This document shows positions 52,053 through 64,000 of a DNA stretch of 64,000 bases, one piece after another (within the stretch, counting starts at the first letter, position 1; each line of letters begins with the position of its first letter). The stretch is taken from NCBI GenBank assembly GCA_946403295.1, contig CAMIZL010000002.1, positions 62,001 to 126,000 on the forward strand. The letters are read 5' to 3'. Both the position numbers and the translations under genes were made by a program. Origin of the DNA: an uncultured Clostridia bacterium. GTDB taxonomy: Bacteria; Bacillota; Clostridia; Lachnospirales; Lachnospiraceae. Under the pieces are notes generated by a model, which ran no database searches, was not told the DNA's origin, and saw only the letters and a program-made list of their open reading frames with translations.

Positions 52053-52790
52053 TCATTTTTTGATTTTATACTTTATGAAATTACCAATACAGATCGCGCA
52101 GTAAATAACAGCAACAGCCACGATGTTTCTTGCCAAAAACGCAGCGATTTCACCGTTTTGAACAGTTTTCATCAACATGGTCATTTCTGTTTGCAGCGTG
52201 TATTTAATGAGCTTCCCGGCAAAGTCGAAGTATGATCCGACAACGGAAAGAATAAGATTGATCAGACTTACAAATATTATAAAAAACAGCGAAACGATCA
52301 AATAGCTCTTCGAAAGAACCGACAGTAAATTGATCATTGCCAAAGCACGTAGTATTATGATCGCAAAGAGCAGAAAAAAGACAACCAAATTCCCAAAAAA
52401 CACATTTTGATCTTCCTCTCCCGCGGGAAGAATGCAATATGTGATCACAAGGATCCCCGCTGCCACAGCATACGAGATCATGGTGACGGCATACTGGAAA
52501 ACAGCTTTCGCCAATATCAATCTGTTTCTGTTCCCGATCATGATGATCTGATTTTTGATCGTAGCAAACCTGTATTCATCAATGAACACAAAACTAAACA
52601 AAAGCGGGATGACCAGGAGCAGTTCCGTTTTTTCCGGGATCTCAACCCGAATAAACATGTCCTTCGTCGTATCTGTCATCAGTTTAAGATACAACGCATA
52701 CACGACACATACCGAAGCTATAAACAGATTTATCCAATGATATGTCTTGCTGACACGAAATTTATACATTTCTCCCCGGATAATACTCAT
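52053..52790 (-). CDS. lanG: Lantibiotic immunity ABC transporter permease (LanG-like)
   Basis: ABC-2 type membrane protein of 245 residues with about six hydrophobic segments (YHWINLFIASVCVVYALYL, TELLLVIPLLFSFVFIDEYRFATIKNQI). The start MSIIRGEMYKFRVSKTYHWI is like that of the neighbouring permease, so they are paralogues. It should form the LanFEG complex that removes lantibiotic from the cell's own membrane. GAGGAGCGG precedes the ATG. Last gene of the cluster; no clear terminator follows. Confidence 0.85.
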   Translation of the reverse strand: MSIIRGEMYKFRVSKTYHWINLFIASVCVVYALYLKLMTDTTKDMFIRVEIPEKTELLLVIPLLFSFVFIDEYRFATIKNQIIMIGNRNRLILAKAVFQYAVTMISYAVAAGILVITYCILPAGEEDQNVFFGNLVVFFLLFAIIILRALAMINLLSVLSKSYLIVSLFFIIFVSLINLILSVVGSYFDFAGKLIKYTLQTEMTMLMKTVQNGEIAAFLARNIVAVAVIYCAICIGNFIKYKIKK

Positions 52791-52805
52791 TTCCGCTCCT
52801 CACAA

Positions 52806-53552
52806 TCATACCAGATTCAACTTCTCATATCTTTTTGCTCCGATCTTCACAAGCAAAAGGGTATATACGATCCCGCACGATACAACTTCCAGTCCGCTTA
52901 ATACCGTCAACGGCATATTTGACAGATTTGACACTGCTACAGGTAAGATCAAAACGGCCAAGACCGGGTTATCAACCGTACCCCCGGACAAAACAATCAG
53001 CCCCACCACCTGCATATATCCATAGTAATATATCAGGAAGGTGAACAACTCGTTTCCCGTATAAGAAAAGATGACATCTATAACAAGGATCGAAACAGCA
53101 AAAAGCGGGATCGCCAACACCATTTTAAGGATAAAGCGCATAAGCATGAGGCTTGTATAGGCTTCTGTGCAGGGCACGGACAAGATGCAGAGGATCAGTA
53201 ACGTGTACAGTATCACAGCCATTATTATTGCCGTGATGACTTGAGCAATGTATTTACAAATAAAAATCTGCTTCACACTCAGAAGGGACATGTACAGATT
53301 CTTATGTGTATGGTTCTTATAGTCGTCCGAAAATACGGGTAAGAAAACCAGTAATACAACCATAACGGCCAGCACAAAGAAACCATCAAATGATAATATC
53401 CATTCCCTGTTGATCTTGCCGGAAGACCCCAAAGAAAGTCTTCGAACGACAAAGGATGCACCGATGATACACATCGCCATAACAAGGGTTGCAACATACA
53501 GATATTTTCTGTGAAACGATTTATACATCTCACCTTTGATATGTCTCAGCAT
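52806..53552 (-). CDS. lanE: Lantibiotic immunity ABC transporter permease (LanE-like)
   Basis: ABC-2 type membrane protein of 248 residues with about six segments (YLYVATLVMAMCIIGASFVV, GFFVLAVMVVLLVFLPVFSDDYKNHTHKNLY). I start at ATG 53552 (MLRHIKGEMYKSFHRKY), with GGGGGAG just before; the frame extends 11 codons further to 53585. It overlaps the end of lanF by 23 bases and lies 15 bp before lanG, so all three are made together. Confidence 0.86.
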   Translation of the reverse strand: MLRHIKGEMYKSFHRKYLYVATLVMAMCIIGASFVVRRLSLGSSGKINREWILSFDGFFVLAVMVVLLVFLPVFSDDYKNHTHKNLYMSLLSVKQIFICKYIAQVITAIIMAVILYTLLILCILSVPCTEAYTSLMLMRFILKMVLAIPLFAVSILVIDVIFSYTGNELFTFLIYYYGYMQVVGLIVLSGGTVDNPVLAVLILPVAVSNLSNMPLTVLSGLEVVSCGIVYTLLLVKIGAKRYEKLNLV

Positions 53553-54498
53553 CTTCTTCTCCCCCATGATCATTTTCGTTTTCATGTCCGATCAGATTCA
53601 GATAATAGTCTTCAAGGCGATCACATACATTGGATACGGAATAAATATCGATGTCGTTGTTTGTCAACGTTCGTGTGATAATATTTGCCTCCTGACTGCA
53701 GTTATAGATCCTTAACTCGCCGTTTACAGACTCGCGCACATCATCACAAAACAGTTTTTCTTTAAGGACCCGCTTCGCATCCTCAACATTTTTTACCGTT
53801 ATTGACAGGCAGCTTTGACTCTTCTTTGCTATGTCTGCTGCAGTTATTTCCTCCATTAACACTCCCCGGTGAAGAAAACCGTACTTAGTGGCAAGTTGTG
53901 AAAGCTCGCTCAGTATATGACTTGAAATAAGTATAGTTGTGCCATATTCCTTGTTATATCTGATAAGGACATCCCTGATTTCCTTTATTCCCACAGGGTC
54001 GAGTCCGTTGATCGGCTCATCCAGGATGAGCAGCTCCGGTTTCCCCATTAATGCAAGCGCAATTCCCAGTCGCTGTTTCATTCCAAGTGAGAAAGATTTG
54101 TACTTTTTTTCTCCGACTCTGCTCAGTCCCACAATTCCAAGCAGTTCATCAATTTTGCATTCGGATTTCGAGAGACCTTTCAATATCCGGTAGTATTCCA
54201 GATTCTGAGTTGCTGACATATAGGGGTAAAAGGCCGGTGTTTCAATTAGTGCGCCCAGTTTCGAAAAGAGCTTTCTGTTATCGGCCACACTTTTACTGTC
54301 AAATAAAAATGCCTCCCCGTCGGTAATACTCTCCAGCAGCAAAACCAGCTTCATCAATGTGGTTTTTCCGGCCCCGTTTTTCCCCACAAGACCGTAAATC
54401 TCGCCCTTGTTTACAGTAAGATTTACCTTATGTAAAACCTCATTCCTGCCATATTTTTTACAAAGATCGCAAGTATACAGTACTTTTTCCACAACCAT
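53530..54498 (-). CDS. lanF: Lantibiotic immunity ABC transporter ATP-binding protein (LanF-like)
   Basis: ATPase of 322 residues resembling BcrA/LanF. Walker A is GKNGAGKTTLMKL (about 38-50), the signature FSLGMKQRLGIALAL and Walker B LLILDEPINGLDP follow, then SSHILSELSQLATKYG. The C-terminal 100 residues are a small extra domain. It should energise the two permeases encoded next and protect the producer. It follows lanT1 by 48 bp. Confidence 0.92.
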   Translation of the reverse strand: MVVEKVLYTCDLCKKYGRNEVLHKVNLTVNKGEIYGLVGKNGAGKTTLMKLVLLLESITDGEAFLFDSKSVADNRKLFSKLGALIETPAFYPYMSATQNLEYYRILKGLSKSECKIDELLGIVGLSRVGEKKYKSFSLGMKQRLGIALALMGKPELLILDEPINGLDPVGIKEIRDVLIRYNKEYGTTILISSHILSELSQLATKYGFLHRGVLMEEITAADIAKKSQSCLSITVKNVEDAKRVLKEKLFCDDVRESVNGELRIYNCSQEANIITRTLTNNDIDIYSVSNVCDRLEDYYLNLIGHENENDHGGEEDAETYQR

Positions 54499-54546
54499 TC
54501 CCCTCTTTCTTGTTTCCCAAATCCCTCAGTTACGTCCAATTAATGA

Positions 54547-56697
54547 TTACATACCAATACTACCACGAAAATACATTTTGTTATATAATTCACACCGTGA
54601 AATCAGTTCTTCATGTTTTCCGCAATCGATTATCCTGCCCTTATCCATTACGTATATCCTGTCAGAGTCTATTATGGTAGACAGTCGGTGTGCGATTATT
54701 ATTCGCGTACAACCTTTTTTTGACAAATATGCTGAAATCCTTTCCTCATTGATCGTGTCCAACGAGCTGGTTGCCTCGTCAAACACCAGTATTCTGGGTT
54801 TGTTTACCAACGCTCTTGCAATAAGGATTCTCTGCCTCTGTCCCCCGGACAGATTCTGCCCAAGGTCAGATATCACAGTATGATACTTCATAGGCAGGTT
54901 CTCAATTTCTTCACTGATGCATGCCACTTGCGCAGCTTCAGAGACAAGAGACTTATCAGTTTCTTCGTTTCCGAGCAAAATGTTATCAAGAATGCTTTTA
55001 TTAAACAGCATACCATCTTGAGGTACGATTCCCATTTGCCTCAGCAAGGCCTTTTTTTCATATTCGGTAAAATCCAATCCATCAATATATACTTTTCCCT
55101 CCGTCGGTTGGAACAAACCCACCATTATCTTTCCAAGCGTACTTTTACCCGAGCCCGAAGGTCCGACTATTGCGATCTTTTCTCCCGCTCCTATTTCCAT
55201 ATCTATATCACGAAGAACGGTCTGTGAATTCTTGCTGTATGAAAAGGAGATGCCCTTAAGGCTGATACTCCCTTCAATCTTCTTAAGTACTTTTCCGTCC
55301 TCGCGCGGAAGCTCTTTCTCCCATATTTCATTAACCCTCTTCACAAATGAACCGGCAACCAAAAATTGAGTAAAACTTCCATATACCGACGCGATAAAAC
55401 GGAAAAACATTTGCGATATTGTCTGGAATGCTATTGCTTCACCTAACGATATTCGGTTGTTGACATAAAGAAAGATACCGATCAGAAGCACAAAAACCGG
55501 AGCAAACATTTGAATTGATTCCGTCACGATTGATTGCATATAGGAATAACGTATTCTTGTCACAAATCTCTTCATCGCCGTCAAAAAAACGGAATGCCAA
55601 TTCTTATATACTTCATCTTCAAGGCCGGCCATCTTAACCGATGAAACCGCTGTGATCGCTTCAACCTGTCTGCTGTACGATTTTGATTTTTCCACGTTTT
55701 CAATATCCACCGATTCCTGCAGCCTGGGATATACAAATGAAATCAGGGCGAACTCCAGTATCGCAATTATTATCGATGCTCCGGCCAGGAAAAGAGACTT
55801 GTTAAACATATATACACATACAATTACAATTGACCCTATATCTATAATTCCCGACACAACCTGCGTGGAAAGCAGTTCTTTTATAGCGGTGGTACAATTC
55901 AGCCTGTACAGAATATCACCGGCCGATCTCAGTTCAAAATAACTGTAAGGTAACTTTAAAAGTTTTTTGAATGTATCAGCCTCTATCTTCTCGGACAAAT
56001 ATATATTAAGCGTAATGATCTTCATTGCTCTGAGTATTGAAATCAAAACATAGGACAAAAAAACAATTCCCAAACTTACAATATATTTTGCCGACGAACC
56101 ATATTCGCTATTTAAAGCAACCCCATCTATTACATCCTGAACCAAATTGGGCAGATAAAATGTTATGGCATAAACCATGCACATAGCGCACAGTATTATC
56201 CCCAGAAGCGCCTTTTTATGCAGCAATGATTTTATAATATATCGCCAAGGATGTTCATTACTCCTTTTTTGCCTGACAAAATGCTCATTAGGATACGGCA
56301 ATGCGACATACAACGAAAAACCGTCACAAAATTCTTCAAAAGACATCTTCAGCCTGCCCTTTGCCGGGTCCATTACATCAACTGTTTTGTTAGTGATTTT
56401 TTCCACTATGACAAAATGATTTTCCTCCCAAAAGGCGATAAATGGTATTTGGGGTTCTAATAAACTGTTGATGTTTGATATCTTATATATTTTGGTGTCT
56501 ATATTTTTGCTGACCAGATAATCTCTTATCTGTATTATCGACATCCCGTCTCGTCCGACATCAAGCTCACTCTGAAGATCACTGACCGATTCTTTACTCT
56601 TATAGAAGTTCAGGATCGCCGTGCAACAGCATAGCCCACATTCCGTTTGAGTCAACTGTTTGATAACAGGTACATGTCTTTTAGATTTCGTTTTCAT
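54547..56697 (-). CDS. lanT: Peptidase-containing ABC transporter, LanT-like (copy 1)
   Basis: Exporter that cuts the double-glycine leader and exports the mature peptide; 716 residues. The N-terminal C39 peptidase has the catalytic Cys in TQTECGLCCC (near 17-20), His in ENHFVIVEK and Asp in VMDPAKG. The membrane domain runs from about 150 to 440. The ATPase has Walker A GPSGSGKSTLGKIM and signature LSGGQRQRILIARAL with FDEATSSLD. It starts 12 bases after the lanM1 stop (AAAGGG near the ATG; a GTG three bases earlier is possible). A second LanT lies upstream. Confidence 0.93.
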   Translation of the reverse strand: MKTKSKRHVPVIKQLTQTECGLCCCTAILNFYKSKESVSDLQSELDVGRDGMSIIQIRDYLVSKNIDTKIYKISNINSLLEPQIPFIAFWEENHFVIVEKITNKTVDVMDPAKGRLKMSFEEFCDGFSLYVALPYPNEHFVRQKRSNEHPWRYIIKSLLHKKALLGIILCAMCMVYAITFYLPNLVQDVIDGVALNSEYGSSAKYIVSLGIVFLSYVLISILRAMKIITLNIYLSEKIEADTFKKLLKLPYSYFELRSAGDILYRLNCTTAIKELLSTQVVSGIIDIGSIVIVCVYMFNKSLFLAGASIIIAILEFALISFVYPRLQESVDIENVEKSKSYSRQVEAITAVSSVKMAGLEDEVYKNWHSVFLTAMKRFVTRIRYSYMQSIVTESIQMFAPVFVLLIGIFLYVNNRISLGEAIAFQTISQMFFRFIASVYGSFTQFLVAGSFVKRVNEIWEKELPREDGKVLKKIEGSISLKGISFSYSKNSQTVLRDIDMEIGAGEKIAIVGPSGSGKSTLGKIMVGLFQPTEGKVYIDGLDFTEYEKKALLRQMGIVPQDGMLFNKSILDNILLGNEETDKSLVSEAAQVACISEEIENLPMKYHTVISDLGQNLSGGQRQRILIARALVNKPRILVFDEATSSLDTINEERISAYLSKKGCTRIIIAHRLSTIIDSDRIYVMDKGRIIDCGKHEELISRCELYNKMYFRGSIGM

Positions 56698-56708
56698 CAC
56701 CCTTTGCT

Positions 56709-59567
56709 CTATATTTCCATCCCCAAGATGGTTGGTATCTCCGGATCAATGATCCTTAAAACTTCATAAGCAATACCCGATACCCCGTTCATAAATCTCT
56801 CATCATCCATTATCTGTGGATCTCCCGTTTTAATAGGAGCATTTTTCAATTTGTTTAAGAAAAACTCTGTTTCCGTTTTTATAGCGTCATCAAGTTCGGT
56901 TTTTTTCAGATACTTATTCATTACCAATACTGCGTCGATCTGCCCTGCCACTCCGTGACAAAGCCCATAATTCTGATCATTTTCAAAGAATGTTTCCGAC
57001 AGGATCTGTTGCATCACAAAATCAATGTCATGGTTCAACATATCTATCCACTTCTCATCTGAAAACTCCACGCACCGTTCAAGGATCTCCCTGATCTTTA
57101 TTCTGGCGACCGCTATTCCTGCCGATCCGTGACACCAGTATCGAAATGAAATAAATTCTTTCGGATACCTCACATCGCGCCAACCGCCATGTTCCCTGCA
57201 AAAAAACTCATTTTCTTTTTTTATCTGTTCCATTCCCAGATCTATATACTCTTTTTTCTTCTTTTCGGCGCCATACTTAATCAAAGCCCAAGCCCACCCC
57301 GAATAACCGTGCGCAAGCCCGGTCATGGGAGTAAAACTGCCCTTTTTGATGTCATCGTACAGCTTTTCCGCAAGCATATCGATTTTTTCTTCTATCAGTC
57401 GATCATGTATCGTTTTGGCTATATCGAGCGTCATTATGATCGTTCCGGCTACTCCGACAATAACATCCTGAGCTTGGGGAGCGATATCTTCTTTGTTCAT
57501 GGTTTCATACGTTTTCAATAATATATCTAAATACTCCCTTTCCCCCGTTATTTTATACAACGTATAGGTAAGGTAAATAAATGCACCGGCGCCGTTAAAA
57601 AACGAATAATTATCTTTTGTGAATGTATTATGTAACCCCTTATATAATGCTTTCGCTGTCTCTATGTATTTTTGTTCTTTCGTATGTTGTGCAGTGTAAG
57701 CCAAAAGAAGCAAAACTCCGCCGCAATCGTACAAACTGCAATTGTTTATACTGATAAAGCAATCATCAGACGTCTGGTAATTTGTGATGAATTGACACTC
57801 GGATCTGTCGTCCGACCATATAAGGAACTCACTTATATGGTCCGCAACACCTTTCACGATCCCGATGTCGCTTTTTTCTGATAAAGTTATCCCGAGTTCT
57901 GTCTTTTTCTCCTCATCATCTGTTTTGGTCACCGACAAAGCCTTATATATGTAGTGTGTCTGCTTTTCCATATCCTTTTCACACAAACCGTTAATGTGAT
58001 CGATCAGAATATCCGCCAGGCTTTTTTCATAATAATCCTCAATTTCAACATTATTGATAACTATACTTTTTTTGTTAAACTGCTCATAAACATATGGTAC
58101 ATCCCCGTTTTTCAGTTCTTCCTTCTCCTGCTCTGCGACAAGATATAAAGGGGTTTCCGGTACTCTTCCGTTAAACAGCTTATCAAACATTACGTTTCCG
58201 GCCGCATCGCTTACCATATAGTCAGGATATGTAGATGCTTCCAATACCCTTGCAAAAACTGCAGTGGGTCGTAAAACTTGTCTGACCTTTGAGTTAACAC
58301 TCTTCAGATACTCCGTTATCTCTTTTTTGTTCTTTTGCAGAACGGTATATGCCTCTCTGAAGCCACGTATTATTTCGTTTTTGTACCATCTGATATTTAC
58401 ATTTACATCACCGTCATATACTTTGTTGTCGCAGCGATCGACTTGCGTCTCTACTCTTTCAAAATGAACGTTATCGGTTCCCTTGTCCATCAGAATACAA
58501 CTGAAAAACTTCTTTGATTGCTGTCCTTTACTCGATGATATTCCCCCATCATCAAAATCCAAAGATCCAAAAGTAGCTTTGGTTGTGATAAGCATCGTCC
58601 CCAACACCGAACAATTATAGTCGGCGAACAGGTTTTCCAGCGAACTTCTGCTACCCTTATTCCTTATAGCAGTCGTATTTTGCGACAACGTCTCCATGTC
58701 TATGACCACAGGATAATTCTTCCCACTGATAACATTTTCCCCATGCAAATCCGTGCAGATCAGTCCGTAGCTCGCTGCCAGTATCACCCCTGCGTTATAA
58801 TAGTATTCATTCAGTTCCTGATGCGTTCTTTTGTTTTCTATATATTTTTCAATATACCCCTGCCATCCGTATTCACCCCGGTCAACAGTGACGGTCGTAC
58901 CAAGGCCACAATTCAGCGCTCCCGACAAAAGACCGATCATATGATCATAAACTTTGTCAGACGCAAGTCCATGCGGTTTATATACCAATTTTGCATTTCC
59001 GAATTGTAGAATAAGTACTTTTCGTCCATGATTATGCGTATCCCCTGACGATGTCAATATCGCGTTCATGTCCGAGATATCGATGTTGAATTCGCTGCGT
59101 ATTACTTCCCGGTCGGCAAACAAACGCGTCATGCATTCTTTCCATGCGTTAACCTTATAGTCTGTTCTCTTCTCAAGTAGCGTAAACAACCTTGGATATT
59201 TTTGTTTTAATTCATTTATATAGTTTTCATCGACAAGGAGATCCATAAACGACTTATATCTTGCCTCGGGAGTTTCTCCCTCCAGTTCCTTTTTCTCGCT
59301 CTTTTGTCTTATCTCAACAACAAGTGTCCTCACAGCCAATTGAACCAGTTCCTCAACAAGCTCGTTGGCCCATCCGAGTTCAAGTTCGGACACGCATTCT
59401 GAGCTCAGACGGTTTTTGCCATTCGTGACAAGAAAGCTCTCCAAATCAGATAATCCCGTTTGGACAAACGGAACAAAAAAATCACCAAAATACCCGTACC
59501 AAATATCTTTTATCCTCTCCATCACTTTTGTTTTTCCGAATTGAATCACTTCTTTCCCGCTAACCAT
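56709..59567 (-). CDS. lanM: Class II lanthipeptide synthetase LanM (copy 1, complete)
   Basis: Bifunctional enzyme that dehydrates Ser/Thr and forms thioether rings in the precursor; 952 residues. The dehydratase half has the kinase-like motifs FGNAKLVYKPHG (189-200), YGLICTDLHGENVI (267-280) and YPVVIDMETL (285-294). The cyclase half has LAHGYSGWAWAL (751-762) and the zinc ligands Cys812 (WCHGSAG) and Cys870-His871 (LCHGVAG). GAGG precedes the ATG. It lies 117 bp after the two precursor genes, with a strong hairpin in the gap. Confidence 0.95.
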   Translation of the reverse strand: MVSGKEVIQFGKTKVMERIKDIWYGYFGDFFVPFVQTGLSDLESFLVTNGKNRLSSECVSELELGWANELVEELVQLAVRTLVVEIRQKSEKKELEGETPEARYKSFMDLLVDENYINELKQKYPRLFTLLEKRTDYKVNAWKECMTRLFADREVIRSEFNIDISDMNAILTSSGDTHNHGRKVLILQFGNAKLVYKPHGLASDKVYDHMIGLLSGALNCGLGTTVTVDRGEYGWQGYIEKYIENKRTHQELNEYYYNAGVILAASYGLICTDLHGENVISGKNYPVVIDMETLSQNTTAIRNKGSRSSLENLFADYNCSVLGTMLITTKATFGSLDFDDGGISSSKGQQSKKFFSCILMDKGTDNVHFERVETQVDRCDNKVYDGDVNVNIRWYKNEIIRGFREAYTVLQKNKKEITEYLKSVNSKVRQVLRPTAVFARVLEASTYPDYMVSDAAGNVMFDKLFNGRVPETPLYLVAEQEKEELKNGDVPYVYEQFNKKSIVINNVEIEDYYEKSLADILIDHINGLCEKDMEKQTHYIYKALSVTKTDDEEKKTELGITLSEKSDIGIVKGVADHISEFLIWSDDRSECQFITNYQTSDDCFISINNCSLYDCGGVLLLLAYTAQHTKEQKYIETAKALYKGLHNTFTKDNYSFFNGAGAFIYLTYTLYKITGEREYLDILLKTYETMNKEDIAPQAQDVIVGVAGTIIMTLDIAKTIHDRLIEEKIDMLAEKLYDDIKKGSFTPMTGLAHGYSGWAWALIKYGAEKKKKEYIDLGMEQIKKENEFFCREHGGWRDVRYPKEFISFRYWCHGSAGIAVARIKIREILERCVEFSDEKWIDMLNHDIDFVMQQILSETFFENDQNYGLCHGVAGQIDAVLVMNKYLKKTELDDAIKTETEFFLNKLKNAPIKTGDPQIMDDERFMNGVSGIAYEVLRIIDPEIPTILGMEI

Positions 59568-59609
59568 TGTGTCCTCACTGTTTTACTTATTCTTATTATT
59601 TTCCACAGC

Positions 59610-59646
59610 AAGCCGTTTGCTTTATAAAAAATAAAGCAAACGGCTT
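59610..59646 (-). other. Perfect 16-bp hairpin between precursor genes and lanM
   Basis: Arms 59610-59625 and 59631-59646 pair over all 16 bases around a 5-base loop. No T-run follows on the minus strand, so it is not a standard terminator. By analogy with other lantibiotic operons it may protect the precursor mRNA or reduce read-through into lanM. Confidence 0.85.
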
Positions 59647-59684
59647 ATGACTTTTCAGTACCTCATGTTACAAAAAGCACCTTA

Positions 59685-59864
59685 TCAGCACTTGGATGTA
59701 CATGCGGATGTAGGACATGCTGCTGCGTGTGTAGTCGCATAAACCGCTCCAATGATCGCAAGTGTAAGGCCGATAGTCGTTACGAGATCCGAACCACCAT
59801 TTACAGCGTCACCACTTAACAATTCATCGATTTCCTGTTCGGAAATAAAACCAAGATTATTCAT
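59685..59864 (-). CDS. lanA: Lanthipeptide precursor, beta-type (copy 2)
   Basis: Precursor of 59 residues. The leader (MNNLGFISEQEIDELLSGDA) is acidic and ends in VNGG, a double-glycine cut site for the C39 domain of LanT. The 35-residue core begins SDLVTTIGLT and ends CPTSACTSKC, with Cys at core positions 26, 31 and 35 and Thr/Ser donors at 20-21, 28-29 and 32-33. The CPTxxCTxxC end is typical of beta peptides such as haloduracin beta and lacticin 3147 A2. A stop TGA is followed at once by TAA. AGGAGGTAC precedes the ATG. It is 12 bp after copy 1. Confidence 0.94.
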   Translation of the reverse strand: MNNLGFISEQEIDELLSGDAVNGGSDLVTTIGLTLAIIGAVYATTHAAACPTSACTSKC

Positions 59865-59876
59865 AGTACCTCCTTA

Positions 59877-60068
59877 TCAGCACTTGCTTGTGCATGCAGA
59901 TGTAGGGCAGAAATCCATACTTACCGTCATTGCAAATGTTGTCAATGTGATTGCGACAGTAGCAAGGATTGTTCCCAGTTCAGAACCGCCATTAACGGTT
60001 TCCTGTCCTAAAAGGTTGTCAATTTCCTTCTCGGAAATGAATCCGGTCAACTCCTTGGAATTCTTCAT
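59877..60068 (-). CDS. lanA: Lanthipeptide precursor, beta-type (copy 1)
   Basis: Precursor of 63 residues from ATG 60068 (GGAGAAG upstream; the open frame reaches 60110). The leader (MKNSKELTGFISEKEIDNLL) shares the GFISExEID pattern with copy 2 and ends in VNGG. The 35-residue core begins SELGTILATV and ends CPTSACTSKC, with Cys at 26, 31 and 35. A Ser at core position 22 is four residues before Cys26, the spacing of the first conserved ring in haloduracin beta. Copy 2 has His there. The N-terminal core is hydrophobic with many Thr. Confidence 0.94.
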   Translation of the reverse strand: MKNSKELTGFISEKEIDNLLGQETVNGGSELGTILATVAITLTTFAMTVSMDFCPTSACTSKC

Positions 60069-60098
60069 GATACGCTTCTCCTTTCTTAAATAGTAACA

Positions 60099-60125
60099 AT
60101 TATATTTCAATGGCCATCAATACAA
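60099..60125 (-). promoter_or_regulatory. Candidate promoter of the precursor genes
   Basis: On the minus strand a perfect TATAAT (60104-60099) is preceded by TTGTAT with a 15-base spacer, or by AATTGT with 17. It lies between the lanT2 stop and the first precursor, where a separate strong start for precursor mRNA is expected. Confidence 0.45.
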
Positions 60126-62285
60126 TTATTCCTTAGTCATCTCTTTTGAGAGCTCAACTTCACCATATCTGTACAGTTTGTAGTACTCCCCTTTAGATTC
60201 CATCAATTCATTATGTTTTCCCTGTTCGACCAACAAACCGTCTTTTATTACAAAAATACGATCCGCATCGACTATCGTGGATAATCTGTGAGCGATGATG
60301 ATCCTTGTGCAGCCCATTTTTGAAAGGTACTCAGATATTATTCTTTCATTTACATTATCCAAACTGCTTGTTGCCTCATCGAGAACCAATATCTTTGGTT
60401 TATGTAGCAGCGCTCTTGCAAGCAGGATTCTTTGTCTTTGTCCGCCGGATAGATTCATCCCCATTTCGGAAACAAGTGTCTGATACCCCATAGGCATCGA
60501 TTCTATCTCGTCGTGAATACAGGCTATTTTTGCCACTTCCTTTACTTCTTCAAGACCATATTCGGTATTCCCAAGTATGATATTTTCAAAAATAGTATTA
60601 TTAAATAGCACCGCATCCTGCGGAACTATTCCTACCTGTCCACATATGCAATCCCTGTCATACGCCTCCAATTCAAGTCCGTCATATAAAACACTTCCCT
60701 CTGTGGGCTTATATAAACCCACAAGCAATTTACTGAGCGAGCTTTTTCCCGACCCGGATTCTCCGACGATAGCGACCTTTTCACCGGCATTTATATGTAT
60801 TGTCATATTCTGCAATACAGACTTGGATTTTTTTGTATACGAGAACGAAACATTTTTAAGTTCAACCTCCCCGTAAAGTTTCTTTTTTACTCCATCGGGA
60901 TTCACCTCATCTTCATCCGCATACCATATATCCGAAACTCTCTCCAACGTCTGAGAAGCGATCAACAATCTCGGGTATGCATTTACAAGCGTCACTCCCA
61001 ATCCAAAAAAGGTACCGGAAAGTGATTGAAATGCAATCACCTCCCCAAATGTAATTGAATTCCTATAAAACAACCAAATGCCCAAACACAGGACAAAAAT
61101 CGGAGAAAATGTCTGTAACAGTCCCGTTATCACATTGAAAAATCCCGATACAAGGATCCTGTTTTTGTAAGCCGACAGTAAGTGTTCGTACTGCTTCTCC
61201 CATTTCTTATATATTTTCTTCTCCATTCCGGAAATCTTTACCGGTAAGATCGTATAAATCGATTCTATCTGCGCAGCCTGTGATTTTGACTGTTCGTATA
61301 TTTCTCCGTTTATAGCCTGTGTCATTTTCGGCTGAAGGCATAAAATAACAATAATAATGATCGAAAAAATAATGATTGTAAAAACGGATAAGGTGACCGA
61401 CTTAAAGAACATAAATCCTACTATCGTAATCACACTTCCGACATTTACTATTCCTTCCAACAGCTGCCCGGATATCAGATCTCTGACTCCCGTCGTGCAT
61501 TGAAGACGATACAACAGATCTCCGTTTGACCTGGTTTCAAAGAACTTATACGGAAGTAACAGCAGATGTTTGAAAGTATCTGCCTCCAACTTTCTGCTCA
61601 AAAATACATTAAGTACCACAAATCGAAGTATACGAAGATTGGCGATCATAAAATAACCACCCATGATTCCCACAAGAACCCCGATAAAGAGTGATAAAAA
61701 ATCCGAATTGACTTCAGTAGCAGTTCTGTTCACTATTTTCTCGATTACAGTCGGAATCAAAAGATTAAGACCGTATGAAACCAGCATACAGATCAGGATC
61801 TGTATGATCAGTCCTTTCTTTTCAAAAATATAGCGAAATACATTTTTCCACGGATTGTACAATTTCTTCACGACCGGCTTGAAACTGTCGGTAAGCTCCG
61901 TAACCATAATCACATTTGAAAACTGTACTTTAAACTCATCTTTCTCAATCTTTCTTATCCCGTCAGCAGGATCGATCAAAACAACGCTGTCGTTCGTGAT
62001 CTTTTCTACGATCACATAGTGTTTATGCTCGACAAAAGCTATAAACGGCTGTTTGATCTTTCGTAATTCCTCAACATCTTCCACTTTATAGCTCTTAGCA
62101 TTTACACCTCTGTCATCAAACAACTGTTTCATCGCGCTGATCGACAATCCATCGCGTCCAACATCCATGCAATCCTGAAGTTCTTTTATGGATTCCTTGC
62201 TTCCATATGCACGAAGGATCATTGCGCAGCAACATAGGCCGCATTCAGTTTCTGTAACCTGTCGTATCAATGATATTTTTTTCAT
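60126..62285 (-). CDS. lanT: Peptidase-containing ABC transporter, LanT-like (copy 2)
   Basis: Second leader-cutting exporter, 719 residues. The C39 domain has Cys in TETECGLCCC (about 10-19), His in HKHYVIVEK and Asp in LIDPADG. Walker A is GESGSGKSSLSKLL, the signature LSGGQRQRILLARAL and Walker B ILVLDEATSSLD. It is a clear paralogue of copy 1 along its whole length. I use ATG 62285, which overlaps the lanM2 stop by one base (TAATG); an ATG at 62297 adds four residues. It lies 57 bp before the first precursor gene. Confidence 0.93.
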   Translation of the reverse strand: MKKISLIRQVTETECGLCCCAMILRAYGSKESIKELQDCMDVGRDGLSISAMKQLFDDRGVNAKSYKVEDVEELRKIKQPFIAFVEHKHYVIVEKITNDSVVLIDPADGIRKIEKDEFKVQFSNVIMVTELTDSFKPVVKKLYNPWKNVFRYIFEKKGLIIQILICMLVSYGLNLLIPTVIEKIVNRTATEVNSDFLSLFIGVLVGIMGGYFMIANLRILRFVVLNVFLSRKLEADTFKHLLLLPYKFFETRSNGDLLYRLQCTTGVRDLISGQLLEGIVNVGSVITIVGFMFFKSVTLSVFTIIIFSIIIIVILCLQPKMTQAINGEIYEQSKSQAAQIESIYTILPVKISGMEKKIYKKWEKQYEHLLSAYKNRILVSGFFNVITGLLQTFSPIFVLCLGIWLFYRNSITFGEVIAFQSLSGTFFGLGVTLVNAYPRLLIASQTLERVSDIWYADEDEVNPDGVKKKLYGEVELKNVSFSYTKKSKSVLQNMTIHINAGEKVAIVGESGSGKSSLSKLLVGLYKPTEGSVLYDGLELEAYDRDCICGQVGIVPQDAVLFNNTIFENIILGNTEYGLEEVKEVAKIACIHDEIESMPMGYQTLVSEMGMNLSGGQRQRILLARALLHKPKILVLDEATSSLDNVNERIISEYLSKMGCTRIIIAHRLSTIVDADRIFVIKDGLLVEQGKHNELMESKGEYYKLYRYGEVELSKEMTKE

Positions 62286-64000
62286 TACTCCAGCCATAAG
62301 AAATCATCTGTCTCTTCTCTTCGAATTGTCCTCAATACAGAATACCCAATACCCGAGATGCCAAGCATTATGCCCTTACACTTACTGTATTCCATATCAT
62401 CTTTATTCCAGCCGTGCTGTATATACTTCCCAAACAGCACGTCGTACGTTTTTTTACATTTTTTTTCGAGCTCGTGGTCATTTAAAACCCGAGCAGCGAA
62501 ATTGAGGATATCAAGATTACCGATGTCTCCATGACAATACACAATGTTATACCCAATACACTCTTTCTTTGTATTCTCTATGCAACATTGAATCTCATGA
62601 TTCAATCGATCATCCTCATAACCTGCTCGTTTTAATAACAACAACGCAAGCAGTATTCCCGGTGCCCCATGACACCATGCTCTTGAAAATCCTACTTTTT
62701 CATCCGAAGTTTTCCATACTTCAGCCTTTTCATCCCAAAACTGAATTCTCTCGTGTTCCAATAGTTTTTGGAATAATCCGTATACTTTTTTACTCCCGTT
62801 GATCAAATACAAACGGTAAAGAGCCGGAAGAATCCCCGCAACTCCATGCGCGAACCCGGAATACCTGCTTGTTCTGTCATTCATTCCAAGCATTTTTTCA
62901 ATATGTGAAAACACTGTCTGAAACTTGGATTCTGCGAGTTTCTTCAGTTCCGTATCTTCGATTTTTTCGTAAATATTCAAAAGAACCGTGAGCAAGCCTG
63001 TTGTCCCGCCGATAAGATCGGATTCTTTTGTATTATCAACACTGTCATCAATAACTCCCATACATTTTATCAATGCGTTTCGGACACGTTCTTCCTTTAC
63101 TATGGAAAAAGCTTTATAAAGGATATAAATATATGATCCGATCCCAAAGAATCCTCCCACAAACTGCATGTAGTTATGCAATCCATCCTCGATAACTCTT
63201 ACGATCGGTTCAATGGCAGCTCTGCTCAAATCGAGGTATTTTTGCTCTCCCGTAACCTTCCATAAATTCTGAAGAAATAACGCAATTCCTGAGTTTCCGT
63301 TGTAAAAATCCAAATCGGACACCCCGTAACTCCAATCATTGGAATCAAGTTTTGCCGTAGTACTGTGAATCCAAAAAGCATCGATATGCCCGTTGTTGTT
63401 TACTCCGGTAAATGCCGTATCGATCAAATAGTCACCTATCTGTTTTGCGGTTGCTAAATACTCTTCCTCCGGGACTTCTTGTTTTTTCCCCGAAGCGAAT
63501 TTTATCTTTGTTGTGAATCTGTTTGACGTAACACTGTAAAACGAGATCCTGATCAGTTCCAATTGCTTTTCCATTTCCTGCGCAGAGACTGAATTCATTT
63601 TTTTCCGGAAATGGTCCCATGGACTGCTTTCCATTTTTGCCAATAGTTTTGTTCCGTAGCCGTCATGAAGATCAGTTTCATTGAACCTGACCGAATAATA
63701 AGGGATATCCCCCTTTTTCATTGCGCCGATCTCGCTGCGAATCAACTTAGCATCGGGCTCATAAATCCCAATCCTCGCCAAAACCATTTCCCTCTCTATG
63801 GCACTGTACATAAAACAAGGATGATGTGACAGGCTCTGCAATTGACCATAAAAAAAGGTGGGACGCAGTATTATTCTAACCCTCGCATTCCAAAACAATT
63901 CTTTTACCCAATCGATGAACACTTCACGGTTATCAAGGACAAATCGGTACATCAAAGAGAATCCCCATGACAGATCATCCAGATAATCAGTGCTGTCAAC
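62285..64000 (-). CDS. lanM: Class II lanthipeptide synthetase LanM (copy 2), N-terminus beyond window
   Basis: The frame is open to the right edge, so the start is missing; about 571 residues are visible. The first 150 or so are the end of the dehydratase domain (NARVRIILRPTFFYGQLQSL, DIPYYSVRFNETDL). The rest is the LanC-like cyclase with FYNGNSGIALFLQNLW, FAHGVAGILPAL and the zinc-ligand motifs AWCHGAPGILLALL and YCHGDIGNLDIL. It differs clearly from copy 1, which suggests a different substrate. A precursor for it may lie upstream, outside the window. Confidence 0.93.
   Translation of the reverse strand, partial: VDSTDYLDDLSWGFSLMYRFVLDNREVFIDWVKELFWNARVRIILRPTFFYGQLQSLSHHPCFMYSAIEREMVLARIGIYEPDAKLIRSEIGAMKKGDIPYYSVRFNETDLHDGYGTKLLAKMESSPWDHFRKKMNSVSAQEMEKQLELIRISFYSVTSNRFTTKIKFASGKKQEVPEEEYLATAKQIGDYLIDTAFTGVNNNGHIDAFWIHSTTAKLDSNDWSYGVSDLDFYNGNSGIALFLQNLWKVTGEQKYLDLSRAAIEPIVRVIEDGLHNYMQFVGGFFGIGSYIYILYKAFSIVKEERVRNALIKCMGVIDDSVDNTKESDLIGGTTGLLTVLLNIYEKIEDTELKKLAESKFQTVFSHIEKMLGMNDRTSRYSGFAHGVAGILPALYRLYLINGSKKVYGLFQKLLEHERIQFWDEKAEVWKTSDEKVGFSRAWCHGAPGILLALLLLKRAGYEDDRLNHEIQCCIENTKKECIGYNIVYCHGDIGNLDILNFAARVLNDHELEKKCKKTYDVLFGKYIQHGWNKDDMEYSKCKGIMLGISGIGYSVLRTIRREETDDFLWLE

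Follow-up and report, generated by a model that had tools for sequence, protein, structure and literature searches.

The 64,000-nucleotide stretch analysed here, which we call the window (G000:C2:62001-126000, part of a 2.39 Mb genome in 65 contigs from an uncultured member of the family Lachnospiraceae), carries at its right end most of a class II lanthipeptide gene cluster in which each of two LanM enzymes is coupled to a LanT exporter of its own, and our searches support its assignment to the two-component lantibiotics of the lacticin 3147, haloduracin and lichenicidin kind. We consider it likely from the sequence comparisons that the cluster is complete, with one LanM per component, and that its two LanTs are old paralogues which both work, each with a preference for the coupled peptide and with overlap between them. 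An earlier note made from the letters of the window had already read the gene order, strand and coordinates of this cluster correctly. The window end cuts the cluster inside lanM1; as the contig extends 18 kb further, the whole could be read, the order on the minus strand being LytTR regulator, GHKL kinase, an 18-codon open reading frame (ORF), lanA-alpha, lanM1, lanT1, lanA-beta1, lanA-beta2, lanM2, lanT2, lanF, lanE and lanG, i.e., one alpha and two beta precursors, two LanM, two LanT and LanFEG, with no frame break in any cluster gene. Here lanM1-lanT1 denotes the alpha side and lanM2-lanT2 the beta side; the earlier note numbered the LanMs the opposite way. The extension to the right which that note had advised in search of more precursors revealed the alpha precursor 1.4 kb past the window end, which is why it had been missed, and added the kinase, regulator and 18-codon ORF that belong to the cluster.

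The two-component identity follows from the presence of alpha and beta precursors together with alpha- and beta-clade LanMs. The alpha precursor scored 35.4 bits against PF14867 (Lantibiotic_a; cut-off 27), and the two precursors already read as beta type scored 41.3 bits (beta1) and 46.1 bits (beta2) against NF038161 (LchA2/BrtA2, beta type; cut-off 26). The beta1 core ends in CPTSACTSKC and beta2 has the identical last ten residues; the leaders of the two are similar, and identity between their cores is confined to these ten residues. Read by eye, the leader ends in GA in the alpha precursor and in GG in both betas. LanM1, LanM2, the domains of both LanTs, LanF, the alpha and both beta precursors all scored above a curated cut-off in at least one library, and genome-wide family searches found two LanMs, two C39 proteins, one alpha (a single copy) and two beta precursors, all inside the cluster. 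A LanM tree of 44 sequences, made by a quick method with support from the Shimodaira-Hasegawa-like approximate likelihood ratio test (SH-aLRT) only, covered 22 of the 29 non-redundant two-LanM loci described below (left out were L036, L062, L068, L070, L074, L078 and L138) and split its sequences 22/22 between an alpha and a beta clade (SH-aLRT 100), every locus contributing one LanM to each. LanM1 fell in the clade of LanMs adjoining alpha genes, its sister being the LanM of locus L045 (support 99), and LanM2 in the other; the two LanMs of the Bacillus paralicheniformis locus L027, which we take to be lichenicidin-type, were likewise one per clade. The tree thus supports one LanM per component, in line with the suggestion of a two-component lantibiotic that the earlier note had drawn from the two LanMs, its 'lanM2' being the alpha-clade and its 'lanM1' the beta-clade enzyme.

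To place the two LanTs we counted as a two-LanM locus any in which at least two ORFs of at least 150 residues matched LanM at more than 60 bits, and 31 loci qualified, or 29 once L024 (a copy of L016) and L137 (a copy of L020) are set aside; among these, L045 also represents L015 of the same contig. The flanks extended up to 10 kb from the query and several contigs were shorter, so a distant second LanT could escape detection. One C39 LanT was present in 23 of the 29, none was recognised in four and two were found in two, namely the source cluster and L126 of genome G032, which is of the same family; the single shared LanT that is usual, if not obligatory, in two-component clusters is therefore replaced here by two, and the expectation that two are unusual was borne out. 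Among the four loci lacking a recognised LanT, L014, L068 and L138 had none in view and L062 had a 1261-residue ORF whose C39 region did not align; the second LanM of L068 is partial, and the two short LanM ORFs of L078 are maybe one broken gene. Two C39 proteins also occurred in two of 84 single-LanM loci, L032 and L131. L032 (L032:2635-13320), from a Pleurocapsa metagenome-assembled genome (MAG), has a pair of C39 transporter ORFs, of which the second is truncated where the contig ends. In 19 of 28 single-LanM loci of the family or order (L127-L129, L132-L136, L141-L149, L154 and L155) no LanT was seen in the sequence read, which spanned at most 20 kb and in some cases stopped at a contig end, and 16 of these 19 had a GHKL kinase matching that of the cluster.

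The two-LanT locus of G032 is informative in its own right. Its contigs L126, with the two LanTs, and L013, with alpha and beta precursors, are identical over 87 bp at their ends, within the alpha-LanM, which makes G032 the source of a second alpha/beta cluster with two LanTs. Like the source cluster it has alpha, beta, two LanMs of both clades and two C39 LanTs with full triads; unlike it, the LanTs come from another branch of the tree, a 60-residue ORF and the beta-LanM lie between them, and the layout differs. L131 likewise has two LanTs, and each G032 LanT branched with one of these (98/92 and 98/90); as the G032 LanTs branch elsewhere than ours, clusters with two LanTs have more than one origin. 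Similar-looking ORFs of 60 and 62 codons, for which Pfam gave no confident match, directly follow the first LanT of the pair in L126 (L126:5593-5829) and L131 (L131:17240-17428). In L131, whose cluster holds four similar lanA-like ORFs, the first of the tandem LanTs (L131:15053-17227) carries Q where C39 has its histidine; this suggests that it serves transport alone, next to an intact copy.

Thusin of Bacillus thuringiensis (PMC4949975) resembles our cluster in having one alpha, two betas, two LanMs and immunity ABC genes, but has one transporter gene, thsT, and betas that are 95% identical. Lichenicidin of the Bacillus licheniformis group (PMC10006061) shares the alpha/beta precursors with an alpha- and a beta-LanM, but has one LanT for both peptides and a protease, LicP, that trims the beta; in the lichenicidin-type L027 the C39 LanT lies behind the beta-LanM, as lanT2 does here. 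Romsacin has two LanMs and one lanTP (PMC10715183). A LanT-centred survey reported eight two-LanM clusters, and its text contained none of the phrases 'two LanT', 'two copies', 'more than one LanT' or 'LanT genes' (PMC3951391). We recognised no two-LanT cluster from the titles and abstract beginnings of open-licence papers, which is no proof of absence. The closest layout was that of L045 (Lachnospiraceae MAG RGIG2885), which has the response regulator and kinase, a W-rich micro-ORF, alpha, M1-T, beta, M2 and FEG in nearly the same order, with its T and M1 being sisters of our LanT1 and LanM1; it differs in having no LanT behind M2, one beta, a P at the C39 Gln and two ORFs inserted between alpha and M1. 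On the same contig (L015:1613-3900) these inserts were, by eye, reverse-transcriptase-like and transposase-like.

LanT1 and LanT2 both retain the Q-C-H-D residues of the C39 peptidase as well as the Walker A, signature, Walker B and H-loop motifs, in agreement with the earlier reading that each LanM has its own full LanT with an intact C39 domain, and no other C39 protein was found in the genome at an E-value of 0.001. That note had set two outcomes against its proposal, a frame break in a LanM or LanT and a recent duplication, and neither was found. A pseudogene or decayed LanT copy was rejected, as both genes are intact with conserved motifs, and a recent duplication was rejected because the two LanTs are 44% identical and have different nearest relatives, the marginal topology test below being the caveat. 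LanT1 paired with the LanT of L045 (97/91 in the first tree, 91/84 in the second) and LanT2 with that of L016 (95/90 and 93/86), while the LanT of L017 joined the LanT1-L045 pair (90/58, then 96/86). Gene position fits the tree: of the 19 alpha/beta loci with a single LanT, 16 had it after the beta-LanM, one (L044) before the alpha-LanM and two after the alpha-LanM, and these two, L017 and L045, are those grouping with LanT1. Judged by tree and gene order, LanT2 is thus at the usual site behind the beta-LanM and LanT1 is of a small group found behind the alpha-LanM. The simplest history would be an old duplication in the lineage, with relatives losing one copy or the other; a transfer may also have been involved. 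Several results weigh against our reading: the supports for the LanT1-L045 and LanT2-L016 pairs dropped in the second tree; the approximately unbiased (AU) test against sisterhood of LanT1 and LanT2 was marginal (p 0.0462), so the two may still stem from a private duplication; the single LanT of L045 (L045:13048) carries P where Gln is conserved ahead of the C39 cysteine and so may not fully work, which makes it a weaker witness and leaves L017 to carry the argument for a single LanT of the LanT1 type; and LanE and LanG had weak family matches only and were placed by position.

Within the operon lanM1 and lanT1 overlap by 13 nucleotides and lanM2 and lanT2 are separated by eight, which together with hairpins between lanA-alpha and lanM1 and between lanA-beta2 and lanM2 makes it resemble two lanA-lanM-lanT blocks. 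Such close coupling, the GA alpha leader beside GG beta leaders and the fact that both intact lanT genes encode the sole C39 proteins found in the genome would suit a strict division, in which LanT1 cleaves and exports alpha only and LanT2 the betas only. We nevertheless find this doubtful, since a single LanT stands beside both peptides in L017 (LanT1 group) and L016 (LanT2 group), and also in L045 (LanT1 group), and since the divergence of LanT1 and LanT2 is average: relative to the nucleotide-binding domain (NBD), their identity ratios were 0.79 for C39 (mean 0.78, standard deviation 0.10) and 0.63 for the transmembrane domain (mean 0.58), so that no excess divergence of either was seen against the 369 pairs, drawn from 28 LanTs, whose NBDs are 45-70% identical. 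In two further single-LanT loci, L018 and L023, the alpha leader ends in GA and the beta leader in GG (sites by eye), and LicT, one LanT, cleaves GG, GA and GS leaders (PMC10006061); the leader difference therefore does not demand two LanTs, and the leader motif as the cause of two LanTs is unsupported. Taken together, the single-LanT relatives, the average divergence, the GA and GG leaders served by one LanT and the range of LicT favour two working LanTs with overlapping substrates, strict specificity being the less likely reading. The earlier proposal that each LanM/LanT pair serves its own peptide accordingly divides: for the LanMs it agrees with the phylogeny, and for the LanTs it agrees with the gene coupling but is opposed by L017, L016 and the average C39/NBD divergence.

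One LanT serving both peptides in relatives and the average divergence of the recognition domains would also fit LanTs that are interchangeable, the second copy boosting export or heading for loss, yet both copies are intact despite deep divergence, a state rarely preserved under pure redundancy, and we rate this explanation as rather unlikely. It is more improbable still that the cluster is a hybrid, its alpha-M1-T1 and beta-M2-T2-FEG blocks having been joined by recombination from different two-component clusters: LanM1 and LanT1 pair with L045, LanT2 pairs with L016, LanM2 lies outside both and each block resembles a full lanA-lanM-lanT set, but LanM1, LanT1 and LanT2 group with L045, L016 and L017, and LanM2 with L045 and L016, as expected of one inherited cluster. 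C39 ABC proteins often export the signal peptides of bacteriocin systems, and the second LanT might accordingly carry other cargo such as the W-rich peptide discussed below; the micro-ORF has 18 codons and no GG leader, however, and similar W-peptides occur in the single-LanT loci L045 and L017, which makes this a very remote prospect.

We return to two working exporters with overlapping preferences. Read from gene content, open frames, conserved motifs, phylogenetic types and gene order, the predicted specificities, ring formation and activity are as follows: LanM1 would form the rings in the alpha peptide, a predicted lipid II binder, and LanM2 would do so in both betas, which would then form the pore with alpha; the two LanTs would cut the leaders at the G-A/G-G sites and export the products, each presumably preferring the peptide of its translationally coupled LanM and overlapping with the other; and LanFEG would protect the producer. 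LanT1 and LanT2 would be old paralogues within one lineage of two-component LanTs, of which relatives keep one and this lineage both.

Features of the cluster and its surroundings (window positions, or positions on L003, where L003 position = window position minus 50000)
Feature	Position	Strand	Basis
lanG, permease	52053..52790	-	ABC2_membrane_4 21.7 bits, cut-off 27
lanE, permease; first ATG overlaps lanF, later start likely	52806..53585	-	ABC2_membrane_4 24.1 bits, cut-off 27
lanF, self-protection ABC ATPase	53530..54498	-	above Pfam ABC_tran cut-off; TIGR03740 223.3 bits, below cut-off 309.75
lanT2, C39 peptidase-ABC exporter, 717 residues, GTG start	54547..56700	-	Pfam C39, ABC_membrane, ABC_tran above cut-off
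lanM2, beta-clade LanM, 952 residues	56709..59567	-	family match (TIGR03897 612 bits), tree
Hairpin between beta genes and lanM2; candidate attenuator or processing site	59610..59646	-	z -5.28
lanA-beta2 precursor, 59 residues, GG leader	59685..59864	-	NCBIfam NF038161
lanA-beta1 precursor, 63 residues, GG leader	59877..60068	-	NCBIfam NF038161
lanT1, C39 peptidase-ABC exporter, 723 residues	60126..62297	-	Pfam C39, ABC_membrane, ABC_tran above cut-off
lanM1, alpha-clade LanM, 1009 residues in full	62285..64000 in window, continues beyond; full L003:12285-15314	-	Pfam DUF4135 and LANC_like, TIGR03897 757 bits
Hairpin between lanA-alpha and lanM1	L003:15376-15408	-	z -3.70
lanA-alpha precursor, 68 residues	L003:15422-15628	-	Pfam Lantibiotic_a
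W-rich micro-ORF, 18 codons	L003:15719-15775 (65719-65775 window scale)	-	read from sequence
Terminator-like hairpin with T-run	about L003:15791-15839 (65791-65839 window scale)	-	z -7.52
Direct repeat ACCGCTTA, 20-nucleotide period	L003:15859-15886	-	read from sequence
GHKL histidine kinase	L003:15890-17164	-	PF14501 68.2 bits, above cut-off
LytTR response regulator	L003:17157-17876	-	PF04397 33.2 bits, above cut-off
feoB-like gene after LytTR regulator	beyond 17876 on L003		named by eye

No LanP gene was seen in the ORF lists of the cluster, a genome-wide search for LanP not having been made, and a sigma-70 scan gave 37 promoter-like sites where 47.9 were expected. A LanM occurred in one of 24 genomes of the genus sample, namely the source genome, and in the family sample, counting the source genome, a beta precursor was found in 5 of 397 genomes and a LanM above cut-off in 26 of 397. 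A plasmid search with LanM2 returned 189 records, every one below 60% identity.

The regulatory end of the cluster has the GHKL kinase and LytTR regulator of Agr-type systems, both above the Pfam cut-off, and between the kinase and lanA-alpha an 18-codon ORF with a strong Shine-Dalgarno sequence that reads MIGYTIWWWILFGSGNGS. From the regulator to lanA-alpha there was, besides the kinase, no ORF of at least 150 residues and the micro-ORF was the sole short gene seen, so that neither an AgrB peptidase nor an AgrD precursor gene was noted next to the kinase, no AgrB model having been run and no genome-wide AgrB search made. The micro-ORF has no GG leader: it starts at its own Shine-Dalgarno sequence and is leaderless, unlike the inducing peptides of the PlnA and ComC kind, which have a double-glycine leader. 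Similar W-rich ORFs followed the kinase of L045 (L045:5664) and both kinases of L017 (L017:6655 and 21255), and others of 11-25 codons, each preceded by a Shine-Dalgarno sequence, lay directly downstream of GHKL kinases in L152, L158, L162, L164-L167, L169, L170, L172 and L173; many of these ORFs are preceded by a direct repeat with a period of 20-22 nucleotides. Relatives of the kinase were found in 41 of 393 genomes at an E-value of 1e-20, and we read the best 30 loci, with duplicates removed by C-terminus, searching 300 nucleotides downstream and using 497 other ORFs of at least 180 residues from the same loci as controls. A Shine-Dalgarno-preceded ORF of 10-30 codons with at least two W followed 16 of 56 kinases and 12 of 497 other ORFs, such an ORF with an upstream direct repeat like ACCG[TCA]TNA at a period of 20-22 nucleotides 9 of 56 and 0 of 497, and the repeat by itself (12 or more of 14 positions matching) 11 of 56 and 7 of 497; as the repeat and thresholds were set after ten cases had been seen, and the kinases are related, Fisher values describe these counts and do not test them. 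Among the 24 kinases scoring at least 100 bits to that of the cluster, 13 had the W-ORF, and with at least three W and duplicates kept the count was 8 of 43 kinases against 6 of 459. By eye, and outside these counts, four further W-peptides were seen in L161, L168, L176 and L177, and none in L159, L160, L163, L171, L174 and L178. Between the near relatives L164 and L165, three changes in the ORF are silent and one alters an amino acid.

The kinase of the lantibiotic cluster was the sole one with a W-ORF among the nine GHKL proteins of the source genome, and no W-ORF was found after the kinase of the G032 two-LanT cluster or beside most kinases of the single-LanM loci lacking LanT. Among eight other cassettes, read 6.5 kb downstream, L192 had a GG-leader peptide together with a C39 exporter, and in L187 there was a radical-SAM-like protein with a small ORF (by eye); L188, L189, L191, L195 and L196 had no bacteriocin-like neighbour in that span and L193 nothing clear. 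The L168 peptide was followed by a short C39-like reading (by eye). No family matches were obtained for seven W-peptides in NCBIfam or for three in Pfam, and no prior report of such a family was recognised in the literature, six core strings having matched only two unrelated medical papers. AgrA, a LytTR protein, binds direct repeats in pairs (PMC4227749), and the cassette repeat is similar to these. The terminator-like hairpin with its T-run, which lies between repeat and micro-ORF, may stop readthrough from the kinase at the start of the lantibiotic operon; similar hairpins were seen by eye in L045, L170 and L173.

These W-rich peptides look like a candidate undescribed pheromone family of Lachnospiraceae and relatives. 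The 18-codon ORF would open the lantibiotic operon as its first cistron, downstream of a direct repeat to which the LytTR regulator would bind, and its peptide would be released and sensed by the adjacent GHKL kinase, giving an autoinduction loop that has no AgrB, AgrD or GG leader; the same kinase-repeat-peptide cassette, with a peptide core like W-K-[WK]-[LI]-F-G, would control several bacteriocin and ribosomally synthesized and post-translationally modified peptide (RiPP) clusters in Lachnospiraceae, and here would drive two LanM-LanT lines delivering alpha and beta separately. That leaderless W-rich micro-peptide pheromones switch the cluster on, that the cassette controls several RiPP clusters and that the two lines deliver alpha and beta separately is, as one combined proposal from sequence, tentative, and we would put it at somewhat less than an even chance.

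The cluster is a real two-component lantibiotic cluster with a rare layout; two dedicated exporters are a testable but unproven idea, and of the leads the putative W-rich peptide cassette has more novelty. Two-component lantibiotics need both peptides in balance, and how far export is tuned per component is an open question for which a cluster with each LanM coupled to its own LanT, set beside single-LanT relatives of either group, lets LanT specialisation be tested directly. For lanthipeptide engineering the cluster also offers a natural production system with two lines. Should the W-rich peptides prove to be pheromones, their genes, at 11-25 codons, would form a family of signals that gene callers easily miss, and the peptides would provide a handle for inducing silent bacteriocin clusters.

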